From a virus, in IMG/VR virus record IMGVR_UViG_3300024306_000023, positions 1-64,000 of that record: a stretch of DNA of 64,000 bases. One strand, 5' to 3'. The notes beneath the pieces were generated by a model. That model did no database searches. It saw nothing but the letters and a program-made list of their open reading frames with translations, and was not told where the DNA came from. The position numbers were made by a program, and so were the translations under genes. The stretch's first letter is position 1; each line of letters opens with the position of its first letter. Of the stretch, positions 33,078-49,134 are shown one piece after another.

Positions 33078-33148
33078 AGCCTCTAGACAGAATTGAACTG
33101 TCGTCTCCGCTTTACAAGAGCGGTGCATCACCACAATGCTTTAGAGGC
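33078..33148 (-). tRNA. tRNA-Thr (anticodon UGU)
   Basis: A full cloverleaf can be drawn: acceptor GCCTCTA / TAGAGGC, anticodon stem CCGCT / AGCGG with loop CTTGTAA (anticodon TGT), and a T arm with GTTCAAT. Length is 71 nt. CCA is not encoded. It decodes ACA, a common codon in this AT-rich phage. Confidence 0.9.
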
Positions 33149-33448: not shown

Positions 33449-33461
33449 AGGTAGAACCTCA

Positions 33462-33545
33462 TAGGAGCGGGGGGAATCGAACCCCCACGGTCATACGACC
33501 AGCAGATTTTAAGTCTGATACGGCTACCAGTTACGTCACGCTCCC
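33462..33545 (-). tRNA. tRNA-Leu (anticodon UAA)
   Basis: This is an 84-nt type II tRNA with a long variable arm. The acceptor GGGAGCG pairs with CGCTCCT (one G-U), the anticodon stem CAGAC / ATCTG flanks TTAAA (anticodon TAA), and the T arm contains GGTTCGATT. CCA is not encoded. Confidence 0.93.
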
Positions 33546-33553
33546 AAAAAAAC

Positions 33554-41852: not shown

Positions 41853-44800
41853 TTACACCACGGGTACAGGTGTTTCTATTGGGACAAAAGCAACTTTTTC
41901 AATAAAGTAAATTGTGTCCGAAGTATCCGTCTTTCTTATGTCACTATTTGCAAAAGCAACTGTAGAAGAAGTTGGTTGAATTGGTGACAATGAAGCGTTT
42001 GCTCCAGGTCCTGCTGAGTTCCACAATAACCATTTACCATTTCTCCATTCATAATAACTTCCATCTGCTGCTCTTTTTTTCTCACCTTCTTTTGTTCCAC
42101 TACCCAATCCAAATTCTTTAACAGTTGCTCTGAGATATGTATTTGATGCATCTGTAACAGAAATTTCTTGATTTGTTCCTAAGAATCCTCCACCTTTTTT
42201 AATAAATTTACCTGTTTCTGGGTCATAAACAACTCCTTTGTTACCTATTGGTGAAGGTGTTGATGTTGGTGGTTGGTTTGGTTGTCCTGGTGGATTTTGT
42301 TTAGGAGCAGATCTTAATTTTTCTACAGTTACATTGATAACTCCAGTAGAGTGACTTGCTATTTTACCAAATGCACCATGACTCAAATCTATTATTCTAC
42401 CAAGTTTATCAAATCCACCAGTGTCATTAACTCTAACTACAACACTCTTACCATTTGCATTGTTTGTAACTTTTGCCCAAAATGGTTGTCTGCCGTCAAA
42501 TCCAGGACTAATCATTGCAGCTGTCATTTTTTTAGAATCAAAAATTTCACCACTAGCAGTTTGTCTTCCTTCCCAATAACTATCATTTGGTCCCCCATAA
42601 TAACTTGCTTGTCCAGAAATCTTTTTTCCTGTTCCTTGTAAATCTGGAGGAACAACTGTTGCTTGTTGTCTTTGGTACTCAAGAATTTTTTGTGGATTTG
42701 CAGGTCCTCCACTTAAATGTCCAAGAAGATATAAGGTTCCTCTTTGATCTTGGATGATTGTTACATTTCCATACCCATCATATCTCGGATCTGTACCTTC
42801 TTTAACATACTTTACAAACTTAAGACCTCCAGTTAGTTTGATTGGCTTCCCTTCGGGCATTGCCCAATCTTCACCTGCGTGTGTTTTCCCCCATCTTGGA
42901 CCCGGACCAGAAGTAATAACCCAAGAACTCATTGGTTTACCACCAACAATAATATTATCTCTAACATTGCTTGGAAGATCTGTTTTAGCACCTGTCAAAT
43001 TTTCAAAGTGAATATGGGGACCTGTCGAGTATCCAGTTGAACCAACATATCCAATAACCTCACCTTTTACATCTATTCCATCCACACCATCTAATGAATC
43101 TCCCGGTGTAACTCCAGGAACAGTATCTTTACCATCCAAATTCAATTCTCTATTTAAGTTCTGAAGTATTTTTGATGCAGAACTCTCAATAGAAATTGCA
43201 AGAGCATTAGAAATAAATCTACCAATTCTTTCTCCAATACTTAACCCACTTCCAAGTTGCTTTGTTGGAACAGATCCACCATTTGCCATCGCAATGGTTT
43301 TGGAAATATCACCAAAAGAATTATTAAGTTCCATGTTTACTGCATTCTCAACAACAGAACCAAATACATCACCGATTGATCTTGCAAGTTTCTTATCTGG
43401 TTTTTGTCCGAGGGTCATGTCAATGCCAGCACCAAACATTGCACCAGCGAGTCCATTGATAGACCTCATCTTCTTCACATCTTCAGAACTTCTCTTCAGT
43501 GCTCTTAATGCGCTTTTCTTCCCTGGTTCATCTGTTCCATATAACTCTTCGATTCTTAATTTACCGCCAGAATCTTTTCCTGGTTGTGTTTTTTGAGACT
43601 GAATTTTTGGTGGAGTTTTTCTTGGTATAGTTTTAAGTCTTCTACTAGGTTTAGATAAAGATTGATTTCTTCCACTAACAGTTCCACCTTGCGCTTTTGC
43701 TTGAACTGGTTTTGTATTATAACCAACAACAGTGTCATATAAAGCTTTACCAATCCAATCGCCAGCAAAACCACCAACAAACATTCCAACACCAGCACCA
43801 AGTCCAAATGTTGTTCCTCCAGCAAGAGCAATACCAATTCCTTGTCCTATAGCACTTCCCACTGCACCAGCAGCTGCTCTAGATGGTTTTTCACGAAACA
43901 CAACAGTATCAATAATAAAACCAATTAATGATCCAATAACTGGTACAGCAACCAATGATTTCAAAGATTGTTTTGCACCTTGAGTTGCTAACTGTTTTGT
44001 TGTTTGTTTTGCCGCTTGTTGAGCAGCGACTGATTGTTCAAATGTTAATTTTTTCCTTGCAAGTTGTGATGCAAAATCACCACCCGCTTTAGATTGACCG
44101 GGTAAACGATATCTTCCGGGAGTCATTGCAGTTCCAGCACCAAATCCTCCAGTTGGTTTTGGAACTACGCCACCTAAAGTTTTCGAAACACTTGCTCCCA
44201 AACCACCAGCAGATCCACCTGGAGTTTTTGGCGCAGTGCTTGCAATCAACATTGCAGCACCAATTGCACCATTCAATACGACATTTAAGTTCTTTGAGAA
44301 CTCATCAAAAGTCTTCTGTGCTCCTTCTCCACCAATCTGTTTAACAAAGTCTCTTGTTTGGTCATATGCTTTATAACCACGATCAATAAAATCAACCACA
44401 CCCTGAAGTAAATTTTTAGCAAATCCCTCAATAAATTTACCTACAGGTTCAAGAACTTTTCCAAACTCCATAAGTTTGGGAAGTAATTCTCCATATTGAT
44501 TGAAAAGATAACCAAGTAAAGTAAATCCAATAAAACGATTAATTCTATCAAAGATACTTTGTCCAGGAATTGATCCTATGAAATCAGATTTAATATTATT
44601 TTTTTTAACTTTTTCTTCTAATTTTTTTTCTTTCTGTTCTCTTCTAGATTTTTCTTCTTCTTTTCTTTTTGTAGATGCTTCCCTTTGATCTAGTAAAAGA
44701 TTGTTGTTTATAATCTTACTTAAACTTATAATTTTTTTCTTAACTACAACTAGACTTCCAGGTTCATCAGTTCCCTTTTTATCTACCGGTTTTAAATCAG

Positions 44801-44915
44801 AACCTGTTATCTTTTTTACTGAGATACTTTTAACAGGTACAAGAAACTTTGGTTTCTCTATTGCACTACTTTCTTTACTTGGGGGTAAAAGTTTTTTGGA
44901 ATCTATAACTGCCAT
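41853..44915 (-). CDS. Tape-measure-like protein with permuted M23 and RlpA-like domains
   Basis: This is a 1020-aa protein. Residues ~60-115 are charged coiled coil. Residues ~125-165 hold the motif RINRFIGFTLLGYLFNQYGE, shared with the neighbouring 698-aa protein. Hydrophobic Gly/Ala-rich helices follow at ~210-400. An M23-like region has H634/H636 (STGPHIHFEN), then H679/D683 (THAGEDWAMPEG) and H733 (LLGHLSG), i.e. the usual C-terminal motif precedes the N-terminal one. Residues ~766-866 are an RlpA-like double-psi barrel (GQASYYGGPND, RQTASGEIFDSKKMTAA, VVRVNDTGGFDKLGR, IDLSHGAF). It probably extends through the tail and cuts peptidoglycan on injection. Confidence 0.7.
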   Translation of the reverse strand: MAVIDSKKLLPPSKESSAIEKPKFLVPVKSISVKKITGSDLKPVDKKGTDEPGSLVVVKKKIISLSKIINNNLLLDQREASTKRKEEEKSRREQKEKKLEEKVKKNNIKSDFIGSIPGQSIFDRINRFIGFTLLGYLFNQYGELLPKLMEFGKVLEPVGKFIEGFAKNLLQGVVDFIDRGYKAYDQTRDFVKQIGGEGAQKTFDEFSKNLNVVLNGAIGAAMLIASTAPKTPGGSAGGLGASVSKTLGGVVPKPTGGFGAGTAMTPGRYRLPGQSKAGGDFASQLARKKLTFEQSVAAQQAAKQTTKQLATQGAKQSLKSLVAVPVIGSLIGFIIDTVVFREKPSRAAAGAVGSAIGQGIGIALAGGTTFGLGAGVGMFVGGFAGDWIGKALYDTVVGYNTKPVQAKAQGGTVSGRNQSLSKPSRRLKTIPRKTPPKIQSQKTQPGKDSGGKLRIEELYGTDEPGKKSALRALKRSSEDVKKMRSINGLAGAMFGAGIDMTLGQKPDKKLARSIGDVFGSVVENAVNMELNNSFGDISKTIAMANGGSVPTKQLGSGLSIGERIGRFISNALAISIESSASKILQNLNRELNLDGKDTVPGVTPGDSLDGVDGIDVKGEVIGYVGSTGYSTGPHIHFENLTGAKTDLPSNVRDNIIVGGKPMSSWVITSGPGPRWGKTHAGEDWAMPEGKPIKLTGGLKFVKYVKEGTDPRYDGYGNVTIIQDQRGTLYLLGHLSGGPANPQKILEYQRQQATVVPPDLQGTGKKISGQASYYGGPNDSYWEGRQTASGEIFDSKKMTAAMISPGFDGRQPFWAKVTNNANGKSVVVRVNDTGGFDKLGRIIDLSHGAFGKIASHSTGVINVTVEKLRSAPKQNPPGQPNQPPTSTPSPIGNKGVVYDPETGKFIKKGGGFLGTNQEISVTDASNTYLRATVKEFGLGSGTKEGEKKRAADGSYYEWRNGKWLLWNSAGPGANASLSPIQPTSSTVAFANSDIRKTDTSDTIYFIEKVAFVPIETPVPVV

Positions 44916-47011
44916 TATGATGCTCCTACTAGATCAGAAATACCCAATGACAATGCAATTTTTGATCTGGAATCATTATTACTTGAAATAATGAACTCAG
45001 GAATTTTAGAACCTCTCGGAATAGAAGGTGTTTTAGTAGGTGATTTAATGGGTGGCAATACTGTATAAGTTGTTTTTGATACGATCACACGAGGACCTGG
45101 AGCAGGTGCTTTGGATTGTGGACCCATAGGAAATCCCATTCTTTTAGCATCATCTAGAGTTGGACTAAATGCTGGTTCAGGAAAAGCCATATCCATAAGA
45201 ACACTACCAACTCCACCACCAAGACCTTTTAAAACTTTAGGAGCAGATGAGAAAGATCTTAATGGTCTTTCTATTGCCTGACGAATTGCAGGAGTTGGTC
45301 CGGTCTTTACCATATTTGGAGTGAATGCCTTGAATGGATTCCACCCTCGATATCCAGTTGCACCAGATTGAAATGCTTTATTACTTCTCGTAATTTGTAA
45401 GGCATCGTCACCAAATAGTGTTTTTGGATTTGGATTTTTTCTAGCATACTGTCCAAGTCCACCAAACTTTGCAGTATTTTCATTTGGAACTCTTACATTT
45501 CTTCCACGATTCCACCAATTCATAAATCCACGCATAGGATTAAATCCACTCCCACTGCTAGATGAAGTAGGAACAGTGTTAGAACCAATCATTCCACCAC
45601 CTGCAGCGAACTGAATATTGTTTGCTATCTTTGGAATATTAGTTCCGCCAGCTTTTTTATTTAAATCTAAAAAGAAATTTGCTCCATGCTTATCAACTGC
45701 CTTTTTAGACATCACAACTTCACCTGGTTGTGCAGCAATTAATTGTGTATCAGGACCAGCACCTGTTATTTTTACACCACTATCGTTAGAAATTCCACCA
45801 CCACCTTCAAATGCAATATCATTTACATCAATTTCCCTATCAACTAAACCACCACCAAAGAAGGATCTTTTACCAACTAATCCTCCCCCATTGTAGTACA
45901 TAGCGGACGGAGTTGGCAACCCTATTGGATTTTTAGGTCCGCCTGGAGCATTTAAACTTTGATTTGCAAATGATGCTCCAAGTTTTTGATACCAAGGAGT
46001 TTCTTTACTTTGTAATGTTTTATCTATTTCTTTTTGAGACTTCTGAGTGAGAGGTTTCATTCTCTCAGATTCTTTTATTTTTACAGCTCCACCAATAGCG
46101 GCCGCTGTATATAAACTTAACCAAGGATTAGCAGCAATAAATCTTCCAATTTGAGGAATAAATCCTCTGAGCATTTTAAGAGTAGTTCTTACAAACTTAC
46201 CAAAAGGTGTAGCAAATAATCCATATGCAGTCAGTAATGCAGGCCACCAATCCTTTAAAAATCTACCAAGAGATTTTACTTTATCTGCATTCTTAGGATC
46301 ACTAAACCATTTTACAAGTTGATTAAATGCATAACCAAGCAAAGTAAACTTAATAAATCTAAAGATGCGATCAAGTATTCCTTGAGCTGGAGCAATAATT
46401 TTCTTTGCAAGTGACTTTAATTGAGTTAGAGGTTTTTCTAGATCCCCTTCGCGTTGTCTTCTTCTACGATCTTCAGATTTCTTTTTCTCTTCTTCTGTTC
46501 TCTTTTTCTTTTCCTTATTTTGAAGTGTCAAACTTTTTAAAATATCATCCAGTGCTTTTTCAATATCTTGTATATCCTTAGAAGAATCTTGTGTTTCTGT
46601 AGGAGTTACTGGAACAATCGCTTTACTTGCAAGAAAAAACTTGTCTCTAGAAATTTGTATTGGTCCAGTTGTACCTATAGTTTCTGCTGTTATTTTTTTC
46701 TTATTTAATTTAAATCTACCAGTTTTGCCCTTTACTCTTTTAAATTCACTGACAAGTAACTCATCTTCTTCAGTAGAAAGTTTCTTATCAAAACTTCTTG
46801 AAGCAACTAATTTTTCTTTCAGAAGAGAAGTGTATGTACCATAGTCAATATCAAAAACATCCTCTATCCCAAGAAGTTTTAAAATTCTTTCATCTATATT
46901 TTCATCAACAAGATCCGTTTCTTTAGTACCTTCATACAAAGCAAGAGCGGATTCTTTCTTAGCTTCCGCTCTTATACTTGCAAGTAGGTCGTCCAGATCG
47001 TCAGGTCCCAT
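44915..47011 (-). CDS. Tape-measure-like protein (first of a tandem pair)
   Basis: This 698-aa protein starts immediately after the tail-chaperone ORF, the usual place of the tape measure gene. Residues ~130-200 are a strongly charged coiled coil (KEKKKRTEEEKKKSEDRRRR). Residues ~215-245 carry RIFRFIKFTLLGYAFNQLVK, the motif shared with the 1020-aa protein. A hydrophobic, membrane-like region follows at ~255-315 (WPALLTAYGLFATPFG). The C-terminal half is glycine/proline-rich with GGGLVGKRSFFGGGLVD. Stop and next start overlap (TAATG), so the pair is coupled. No enzymatic domain is visible. Confidence 0.65.
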   Translation of the reverse strand: MGPDDLDDLLASIRAEAKKESALALYEGTKETDLVDENIDERILKLLGIEDVFDIDYGTYTSLLKEKLVASRSFDKKLSTEEDELLVSEFKRVKGKTGRFKLNKKKITAETIGTTGPIQISRDKFFLASKAIVPVTPTETQDSSKDIQDIEKALDDILKSLTLQNKEKKKRTEEEKKKSEDRRRRQREGDLEKPLTQLKSLAKKIIAPAQGILDRIFRFIKFTLLGYAFNQLVKWFSDPKNADKVKSLGRFLKDWWPALLTAYGLFATPFGKFVRTTLKMLRGFIPQIGRFIAANPWLSLYTAAAIGGAVKIKESERMKPLTQKSQKEIDKTLQSKETPWYQKLGASFANQSLNAPGGPKNPIGLPTPSAMYYNGGGLVGKRSFFGGGLVDREIDVNDIAFEGGGGISNDSGVKITGAGPDTQLIAAQPGEVVMSKKAVDKHGANFFLDLNKKAGGTNIPKIANNIQFAAGGGMIGSNTVPTSSSSGSGFNPMRGFMNWWNRGRNVRVPNENTAKFGGLGQYARKNPNPKTLFGDDALQITRSNKAFQSGATGYRGWNPFKAFTPNMVKTGPTPAIRQAIERPLRSFSSAPKVLKGLGGGVGSVLMDMAFPEPAFSPTLDDAKRMGFPMGPQSKAPAPGPRVIVSKTTYTVLPPIKSPTKTPSIPRGSKIPEFIISSNNDSRSKIALSLGISDLVGAS

Positions 47012-47168
47012 TTTGTTGCTGTTTTGTTTTTTCTTCTTCTAGATAATTTTTCAACATTGCAACATAAACATCCCTTTCCCAAGGCATCATGTTTTCAATT
47101 TCCCATAATGAATATTTATGATACTGAATCAAAGCAAAGTTCAACTTATAAAAATTTTCAAGGTCCAT
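47001..47168 (-). CDS. Tail-assembly chaperone C-terminal part (gp51-like ORF in the -1 frame)
   Basis: This 55-aa ORF begins MDLENFYKLNFALIQYHKYS, with the 'EIENMMPWERDVYVAMLKNYLEEE' element typical of the second part of phage tail-assembly chaperones and of small gp51-like proteins. It lies in the -1 frame relative to gp26. The only ATGs (47177 and 47168) lack a Shine-Dalgarno sequence. Its frame continues back to the slippery heptamer at the end of gp26, so it is probably made mainly as a C-terminal extension of gp26. The stop overlaps the start of the tape-measure gene by 11 nt. Confidence 0.7.
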   Translation of the reverse strand: MDLENFYKLNFALIQYHKYSLWEIENMMPWERDVYVAMLKNYLEEEKTKQQQNGT

Positions 47169-47179
47169 ATGGACCATAC

Positions 47180-47899
47180 TTATGCGAAAAAACTGGATAA
47201 ACCCTCCAGAACAACTTCACTCTCAACTTCAGTTTTTGGATTCTTAACCTTCACTGAATGCGAAAGTTTAGGCATTGTTTCAAAGAACTTTTCAATCTGC
47301 TTGAACTGAGACGAATTCATTTGTTCTAAAAAGTCAATAAGTTCTTTCTTAGTGACATCGCCAGAAACCCAAATTTCATCTTCAGTATAAATTTTATCAA
47401 TACAACTTGCAACAAGATCAAAAGATTGATCCATATTTGCATCACCAGAAAAATCAAAATTATTTTTAATGAATTGATCCAATGAAGGATATTTCATTTC
47501 CATAATAATATTATCATCTACTTTAATTTTATTTGTATGATCTTCATTCTTTTGAATTTTGATTTCATCAATATTAATTTTTACGGAAACATAAGTTTCC
47601 CCATCATCCGGACAAATAATATTAACTTCGACTTCTTCTCCTACAGATTTACCTCGAATATTTAAAAAGAGATATTCAATATCAAAAGTAGGTAACGATT
47701 CTACTTTAATATTTTTTGTTAGAATACAACTTTTAATTACATTTTTAATTGCTGTTGTAATCTCTTTGGTATTCTCGCTTTCTAATGCAAGAACAAGAAG
47801 TTTTTCTTCCTTAACTAAAAAAGGTCTATATTGAATTTCTTTTCCAGTAGAAGGAAGTTCCAACTCATATGTTGGTGTAGAGATCTTTGGTAAAGGCAT
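47180..47899 (-). CDS. 26: Baseplate hub subunit gp26 / T4_baseplate family
   Basis: This 239-aa protein begins MPLPKISTPTYELELPSTGK and has the T4_baseplate (PF12322-type) pattern: YRPFLVKEEKLLVLALESEN, then ITTAIKNVIKSCIL, EYLFLNIRGKSVGE and YPSLDQFIKNN, with IDKIYTEDEIW in the middle. T4 gp26 is a hub/chaperone-like subunit of ~208 aa. The last in-frame codons are AGT TTT TTC GCA TAA, placing a slippery heptamer 6 nt before the stop. It is transcribed from a late box ~30 nt upstream. Confidence 0.8.
   Translation of the reverse strand: MPLPKISTPTYELELPSTGKEIQYRPFLVKEEKLLVLALESENTKEITTAIKNVIKSCILTKNIKVESLPTFDIEYLFLNIRGKSVGEEVEVNIICPDDGETYVSVKINIDEIKIQKNEDHTNKIKVDDNIIMEMKYPSLDQFIKNNFDFSGDANMDQSFDLVASCIDKIYTEDEIWVSGDVTKKELIDFLEQMNSSQFKQIEKFFETMPKLSHSVKVKNPKTEVESEVVLEGLSSFFA
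47186..47192 (-). other. Slippery heptamer T TTT TTC (candidate -1 ribosomal frameshift site)
   Basis: In the gp26 frame the heptamer reads T-TTT-TTC, a canonical X-XXY-YYZ -1 slip site. Slipping continues into CGC ATA AGT ATG and on through the 55-aa ORF with no stop between. Confidence 0.7.
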
Positions 47900-47934: not shown

Positions 47935-48670
47935 AAGCAATATTTGGTGGCGCAAATCCCTCAAATCCAGCTCCAACAAATCCACCAACATTTCCAGGGA
48001 GTTGCTGTAAACCAAAATTATTTTGTAATGGGCTTTCGTTACCATTACTAGTATTAATAGTGTTTATATTATTCATAAAATATCTGATGTAACTGAAAGA
48101 TACTGTACATTTCAACAATTGTGAAGAGTCATAAGATACTGGCATTGAATTAATTGAGATTGGATATGCGCCAATAAAAGTATACTCAACAAATTTATCA
48201 AAATCTTTTTCAAATTTTTGCACATACATATCAACTCTATAATCATCTGGAAATTTTACTCTGTAGTAATAATTTCTTTTTGCTTGATCTTTATATTGAT
48301 CTTCACCTACAGACCAAGACATCCAAGTTTCAAAAAATTTGATGATCTTATAATCATGATCAACATAAAAAGTAAAATCTATTCTATCATCATATTGTCT
48401 TCTGTAAACATGTCTCTCAGTCACACCAGTGAAATCATTATTAATTTCATGAGTTGCTAAAGAAGATCCTGGAAGAGACGCTTCGGAGCAAGAAAGAGTT
48501 AAAAGTTCTGGATCAATATCAGACTGTCGATCACCAAAAAATTTTGCAGCTTTATTTTTAATTTCTGAAGTATTAAAATAAACTGCATAATGGGAAGTTA
48601 ATGCAGGTCTTAATATCTTTGACTTAAGTTCCGAAGTTGGATTAAATTTTGGTGTTTGACCTGAAGGCAT
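47933..48670 (-). CDS. Tail tube-like protein (gp19/gp54 family, tube initiator candidate)
   Basis: This 245-aa protein follows the phage T4 gp19-family pattern: LTLSCSEASLPGSSLATHEI, then a YRRQYDDRIDFTFYVDHDYK strand pair, FFETWMSWSV, YYYRVKFPDDYRVDMYVQKF and YTFIGAYPISINSMPVSYDS followed by LKCTVSFSYIRYF. Residues ~205-245 are Asn/Gly-rich. It is longer than a typical tube monomer (~163 aa in T4 gp19) and lies next to gp26. It is divergent from the gp4-gp48 operon, so gp54, the tube initiator on the baseplate, is the better guess than the major tube protein. Confidence 0.6.
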   Translation of the reverse strand: MPSGQTPKFNPTSELKSKILRPALTSHYAVYFNTSEIKNKAAKFFGDRQSDIDPELLTLSCSEASLPGSSLATHEINNDFTGVTERHVYRRQYDDRIDFTFYVDHDYKIIKFFETWMSWSVGEDQYKDQAKRNYYYRVKFPDDYRVDMYVQKFEKDFDKFVEYTFIGAYPISINSMPVSYDSSQLLKCTVSFSYIRYFMNNINTINTSNGNESPLQNNFGLQQLPGNVGGFVGAGFEGFAPPNIA

Positions 48671-48675
48671 TTGCC

Positions 48676-48683
48676 TATAAATA
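48676..48683 (+). promoter_or_regulatory. Late promoter TATAAATA for the plus-strand operon
   Basis: An exact consensus TATAAATA, facing rightward, lies between the divergent tube-like gene and the NUMOD ORF. It is the only clear promoter for the plus-strand run. Confidence 0.7.
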
Positions 48684-48699
48684 TTTTTACTTATATATT

Positions 48700-49134
48700 A
48701 TGTATATGAAAAAGATAAAAACACATTCGTATATTTGGGATACAACTAAATTGTGTGAAACATTCAATGTTAATGGAGCAACCATTTTATCCGAAACGTA
48801 TGAATATATTTCCGGAAACCATTTTTCCGGAATGTTAGGCAAAAAACACTCAGATGAAACTAAAAAACAAATGAGTGAAATTGCAAAAGGAAGAAATATG
48901 AAAAAAGCAATTGAGTCTTCTTCAAAAAAAAGAAAAGGAAATCCTGCACATAATATAGGCTGCGAATATCCACAGTTTCAGAAAGGAGGAAAAATAATAT
49001 CAAAAGATGGAAAAGTGGTAGAATTTAAATGCATATCCCACATATGCAAAAAATTAAATTTAAATCCAACACATCTAGGTCAGGTCTTATCTGGAAAAAG
49101 AAAATCTCATAAAGGTTGGAAAAATGCCTCGTGA
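48700..49134 (+). CDS. NUMOD-type homing-endonuclease-like ORF lacking a nuclease domain
   Basis: This 144-aa ORF starts at the ATG at 48700 (MYMKKIKTHSYIW) or at 48706. It holds two DNA-binding modules of GIY-YIG/HNH homing endonucleases: a NUMOD3-type segment (GKKHSDETKKQMSEIAKGR) and a C-terminal NUMOD1/IENR1-like segment (FKCISHICKKLNLNPTHLGQ, then VLSGKRKSHKGWKN). No GIY-YIG or HNH catalytic motif is visible upstream, so it looks like a decayed or truncated homing gene, or a repurposed DNA-binding protein. The last 11 nt overlap the start of gp4, which it now precedes in the operon. Confidence 0.7.
   Translation: MYMKKIKTHSYIWDTTKLCETFNVNGATILSETYEYISGNHFSGMLGKKHSDETKKQMSEIAKGRNMKKAIESSSKKRKGNPAHNIGCEYPQFQKGGKIISKDGKVVEFKCISHICKKLNLNPTHLGQVLSGKRKSHKGWKNAS

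Follow-up and report, generated by a model that had tools for sequence, protein, structure and literature searches.

The tail chaperone genes of T4-like phages are said to have been identified by Vladimirov, Gautam and Davidson (2022, Virology 566:9-15), with frameshifting reportedly kept in several T4-like groups and T4 itself using the separate genes 26 and 51. Because these genes have already been described, a frameshift in cyanophages is not new in kind. PMC12846349 attributes to Vladimirov et al. 2022 the report of poly-T -1 signals in T4-like TAC-N genes, and according to PMC10885494 the short and the fused chaperone are instead encoded by separate genes in some T4-like phages. Earlier, Atkins et al. 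(2016, PMC5009743) had ascribed the lambda-type frameshift to long-tailed phages with the exception of T4. Among the papers that our literature search covered, none treats a gp26-gp51 frameshift in cyanophages.

Here we describe the gp26-gp51 junction in a window of 64,000 nt, the whole stretch of DNA analysed, which comes from a T4-like cyanophage record of 98.8 kb, and compare it with the same junction in several hundred relatives. The two genes very probably encode a long tail chaperone of the lambda G/GT type, made by programmed -1 ribosomal frameshifting at T TTT TTC. The breadth of the survey, a three-part cis cassette, natural cases that lack a start codon, and the exceptions are what we add, at moderate value; of these, the combination of Shine-Dalgarno (SD)-like element and hairpin, together with the start-less set, may be additions to Vladimirov et al. 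2022. Judged by sequence, the RNA signals around the cyanophage slip site are unusually clear.

Results

On the minus strand, a tail tube gene (48670-47933) is followed by gp26 (47899..47180), a gp51-like ORF (47177..47001 from its ATG) and two long genes. The gp26 product (239 aa, 27.4 kDa) matches Pfam T4_baseplate (5.5e-77) and phrog_150 (3.4e-82) and would be the short tail assembly chaperone form, TAC-N, with a role like that of lambda gpG. The gp51-like ORF matches phrog_634 (1.2e-26) and is contained in a -1 frame extension (47001..47186, minus strand) that would supply TAC-C, with a lambda T-like role. The next gene (44915..47011, minus strand, 698 aa) is a candidate tape-measure gene by its position and its weak matches to tape-measure phrogs, and a low-confidence model of its product, built without an alignment, suggests long helices. 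The alternative candidate (41853..44915, minus strand) encodes a 1020-aa protein in which hydrophobic stretches are combined with a two-part match to M23 peptidase and with a lytic transglycosylase domain of the DPBB type, and the tape measure may be this protein or its 698-aa neighbor. The gp26 and gp51 genes thus sit between the tail tube gene and the candidate tape-measure genes, as expected of a chaperone pair of the lambda G/GT type. On the opposite strand, a 161-aa ORF (48649-49134, plus strand) with NUMOD3 and I-HmuI NUMOD-like domains fits in between the tail tube gene and a gp4-like gene with a TnsA-like nuclease domain, overlapping both; it is a probable homing endonuclease gene or remnant.

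The initial annotation had gp26 ending in AGT TTT TTC GCA TAA with a perfect T TTT TTC heptamer, and the sequence agrees: the gene closes with CTG GAG GGT TTA TCC AGT TTT TTC GCA TAA, in which the heptamer (47192..47186, minus strand) falls as X XXY YYZ in the zero frame. The zero-frame stop (TAA, 47180..47182, minus strand) lies one codon (3 nt) past the heptamer, not the 6 nt first given. After a -1 slip the frame would read CGC ATA AGT ATG GTC CAT... for 61 codons to a stop at 47001. That this frame runs without a stop into an ORF overlapping the next gene (by 11 nt, from that gene's start at 47011) had been described correctly, but the length of 55 aa had not, the ORF having 58 aa from its ATG and the extension 61 codons (RIS + 58). 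Likewise a fusion of 299 aa and 34.9 kDa is predicted rather than one of the ~29 kDa proposed, 27.4 kDa being the unshifted gp26, while the lack of a good Shine-Dalgarno before the gp51-like ORF was borne out. As predicted coding, a short and a C-terminally extended form of one protein are both present. An in-frame TTTTTTC occurs only twice in the window's 68 ORFs of at least 100 aa (20,719 codons), and only the one in gp26 lies near a stop.

To survey relatives, IMG/VR was scanned for gp26 regions in seven scans, with six divergent queries besides or including that of the window, and named phages were added, giving 342 non-redundant gp26-gp51 junctions, mainly from marine IMG/VR contigs. Because the scans were queried with gp26, the junctions were not selected for the heptamer. 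A perfect slippery heptamer nevertheless stands at the same place in 339 of the 342, and the -1 frame is open for at least 120 nt downstream in 340, so that the conservation of heptamer and frame on which the proposal depends holds among relatives. One codon before the stop we find 316 TTTTTTC and 19 TTTTTTA; the other four heptamers are TTTTTTC or TTTTTTT directly before the stop or, in one case, TTTTTTT two codons before it. Spacing from heptamer to stop is 3 nt in 334/339, and the T run is exactly 6 T in 336/339. A few members from outside the cyanophages (KVP40, Aeromonas Asswx_1, Sinorhizobium phiN3 and Pelagibacter HTVC008M) have the same arrangement.

Two sequences depart from this pattern. 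Synechococcus phage S-SCSM1 has the heptamer, and is counted among the 316 TTTTTTC, but extra bases past the stop put gp51 in the +1 frame and its -1 frame meets a stop after 8 nt; it was left out of the 339 used in further counts. Its closer relatives (L097, L098) are normal, which makes S-SCSM1 either a real exception or a sequence problem. Stenotrophomonas phage IME-SM1 (KR560069) was considered as a natural in-frame gp26-gp51 fusion, its ORF being annotated as a 280-aa baseplate hub, and rejected: the stretch is near-identical to that of Mendera apart from the T run, which is 5 instead of 6, so that the long ORF arises from a one-base indel at the slippery site, probably a sequencing error.

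In public cyanophage records gp51 appears as internal ORFs of 30-45 aa (P-SSM7, P-HM2, S-RSM4) or is omitted (ACG-2014e), and among those inspected (L090, L091, L092, L093 and others) none presents gp26 and gp51 as a single gene with a frameshift.

Codon usage at the slip site departs strongly from that of the surrounding gene. The P-site codon is TTT in 339/339. Where the A-site codon encodes Phe it is TTC in 317/320, against 26% of Phe codons elsewhere in gp26, and the codon preceding the slip ends in T in 339/339 whatever its amino acid (S, N, D, A or G), against a background of 42%. Since relatedness inflates binomial P-values, we give weight to how these columns differ from the others and to a thinned set of 48 sequences, in which the A-site codon is TTC in 39, TTA in 7 and TTT in 2. 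The window also encodes tRNA-Leu(TAA) (33461-33546, minus strand) and tRNA-Thr(TGT) (33078-33148, minus strand), the former reading UUA, the A-site codon of the TTTTTTA variants found in relatives.

A candidate stimulator, the SD-like GGAGGG (47202..47207, minus strand), ends 9 nt before the heptamer. Among the 339 junctions, 86% have an SD-like 4-mer ending at about 9 nt upstream of the heptamer, while other positions in the flanks carry one in no more than 15%. At the Glu codon beneath it, GAG is used in 206/284, the background being 29%, and the SD-like signal therefore exceeds what the protein would impose.

Downstream, the window has a candidate stimulatory stem-loop, GGTCC-ATAT-GGACC (47162..47175, minus strand; -8.3 kcal/mol), which taken alone is not significant (z -1.1) and starts 10 nt past the heptamer, compared with 5 nt in several other clades. 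The signal lies in the set: the 45 nt past the heptamer have a mean MFE of -11.2 kcal/mol versus -5.6 kcal/mol with synonymous recoding, and 292/339 (86%) can form a hairpin at least as stable as -6 kcal/mol, versus 23% of control windows. SD-like element and hairpin occur together in 246 sequences, and only 3 have neither. Within the window's clade, 4 of 5 stem pairs show changes on both sides, with a covariation score reached by 0/500 shuffles, and a synonymous Asp base co-varies with the opposing Val/Ile base (Fisher 9e-11, a value uncorrected for relatedness). Stem registers vary between clades. Because sequences differ in register, RNAalifold recovers little if any shared structure when applied to entire clades, and the stems have to be analyzed register by register. 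Grouping the sequences in this way is circular, and for this reason the covariation test was repeated on sequences that had not been picked by register. In the P-SSM2 clade the 11-bp stem varies too little to provide compensatory evidence. Both an SD-like element upstream and RNA structure downstream are thus present as conserved sequence features.

Profile alignment with T4 places both forms of the protein. The match of T4 gp51 (249 aa) to the fusion spans the junction (E 1.8e-9), and that of T4 gp26 is confined to the short form (E 1.3e-15), which suggests that T4 encodes the long and short forms in two genes and that, by alignment, T4 gp51 is a natural in-frame fused homologue. A search of the 98.8 kb record, itself possibly a fragment, for a second full-length fused copy found none, phrog_150 and phrog_634 matching one locus only. 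The gp26 fold was modeled at pLDDT 88, and the highest-probability solved structure among the matches listed is the HK97 chaperone 2ob9 (0.66 and 0.60; TM to target up to 0.53), at E 1.6-2.2, which is not significant; a PDB sequence search with gp26 returned nothing relevant, the HK97 chaperone included. With structural E-values above 1, it is chiefly the position in the genome, the arrangement in two forms and published work that point to a chaperone role. The proposal that gp26 and gp51 are the G and T parts of a lambda-like system draws support from the natural T4 gp51 fusion and, weakly, from the resemblance in fold between gp26 and the HK97 chaperone.

Discussion

In the mechanism that we favor, most ribosomes would stop at the gp26 TAA and release the 239-aa short form. 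A minority, paused by the upstream SD-like contact and the downstream stem-loop, would move back by one base on T TTT TTC while Phe-tRNAs occupy both the P and the A site, and would then read through the gp51 frame to give the 299-aa gp26-gp51 fusion. By analogy with lambda gpG and gpGT, the short form may cover the tape-measure protein, and the long form, which would be made less often, may recruit the tail tube protein. The slippery site, its frame and conservation, the want of start codons in many relatives and the two flanking elements can be read from the sequence; we infer the slippage in cyanobacteria, its rate and the chaperone function.

The continuity of the -1 frame with gp51 bears directly on whether gp51 is instead a separate protein, made by termination-reinitiation or from its own start, an ATG 2 nt past the gp26 stop, with the T run incidental. 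Databases do annotate gp51 as its own gene, and an in-frame ATG is the fourth codon past the slip point in the window and in 161 of the 339 junctions in all. However, no gap interrupts the alignment of the -1 translation between the slip point and the gp51 core in 339 sequences, and the predicted fusion matches phrog_150 in a single stretch (1.7e-93). At the position of the window's apparent start Met there are 172 Leu, 162 Met and 5 Ile, so it behaves as an internal hydrophobic position. Before the conserved gp51 core, 92/339 junctions have no ATG and 60/339 have no ATG, GTG or TTG, so that a separate initiation of gp51 cannot be general. Such junctions, which force annotators to short internal ORFs or to the omission of gp51, provide the strongest argument against separate initiation as the general mode; that gp51 is only initiated separately, a possibility raised against the frameshift at the outset, is excluded as far as sequence goes. 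Reinitiation would also leave unexplained the invariant heptamer, the TTC bias, the gapless spacing and the natural T4 fusion, and we consider it highly improbable as an account of the locus. Because many members, including the window, have an ATG right after the stop, some free gp51 could be made in addition to the fusion.

Slippage need not be ribosomal: RNA polymerase slipping on the T6 run could add one U, so that some mRNAs would encode the fusion in frame. This would yield the same protein, and hairpins can also promote polymerase slippage. Against it, the run keeps one phase, X XXY YYZ, the TTTTTTA variants remain compatible with a ribosomal heptamer, and the SD-like element is of a kind that ribosomes recognize. 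The run is exactly 6 in 336/339, as opposed to the runs of 9 on which bacterial transcriptional slippage has been described (PMC5009743). We regard polymerase slippage as just as improbable as separate initiation. An intrinsic transcription terminator ending gp26 (CTGGAGGGTTTATCCAG + T6), suggested by a pattern scan that finds exactly one terminator-like site here, was rejected and is the most improbable reading of all, since its stem is not conserved (kept in only 35/339 relatives against an invariant T run) and the downstream same-strand genes overlap, suggesting one transcript.

Within the programmed ribosomal frameshift, we propose more tentatively, and with rather less than even confidence, that T4-like cyanophages drive the frameshift with a full dnaX-like cassette in which the slip site stayed put and the stem-loop was remade in registers that differ between clades, giving a tuned rate that is probably higher than lambda's. 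In some clades the stem would bury the apparent gp51 start and so block separate initiation.

Reading gp26-gp51 as frameshifted would correct how two core tail genes are annotated across hundreds of cyanophages, whose genome records now show gp51 as separate, truncated or missing, and it supports reading the T4 'baseplate hub' proteins gp26 and gp51 as tape-measure chaperones. The more than 300 natural variants also form a panel for studying how an SD-like element, a slippery heptamer and a hairpin act jointly on bacterial ribosomes.

Compared with lambda gpG/gpGT (and P2 E/E+E' and the HK97 gp13 family), the cyanophage locus shares a short gene with a -1 slippery site at its end, directly ahead of the (here candidate) tape-measure gene, and the coding for short and C-terminally extended forms; it differs in its T TTT TTC heptamer, its larger gp26, and its candidate SD-like upstream and hairpin downstream stimulators. 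We know of no sequence similarity to lambda-type chaperones. With the -1 cassette of E. coli dnaX it shares the three-part layout of upstream SD-like element, slippery heptamer and downstream stem-loop, but gene, heptamer and purpose are others, and the dnaX frameshift yields a shorter product. In T4, genes 26 and 51 stand apart on opposite strands and gene 26 does not end in a slippery site; the T4-type arrangement of separate TAC-N and TAC-NC genes was not found in the 98.8 kb record, possibly a fragment. The T4-like TAC-N/TAC-NC system of Vladimirov, Gautam and Davidson (2022) apparently comprises the same genes and the same idea, a gp26-like short form with a gp51-like extension.
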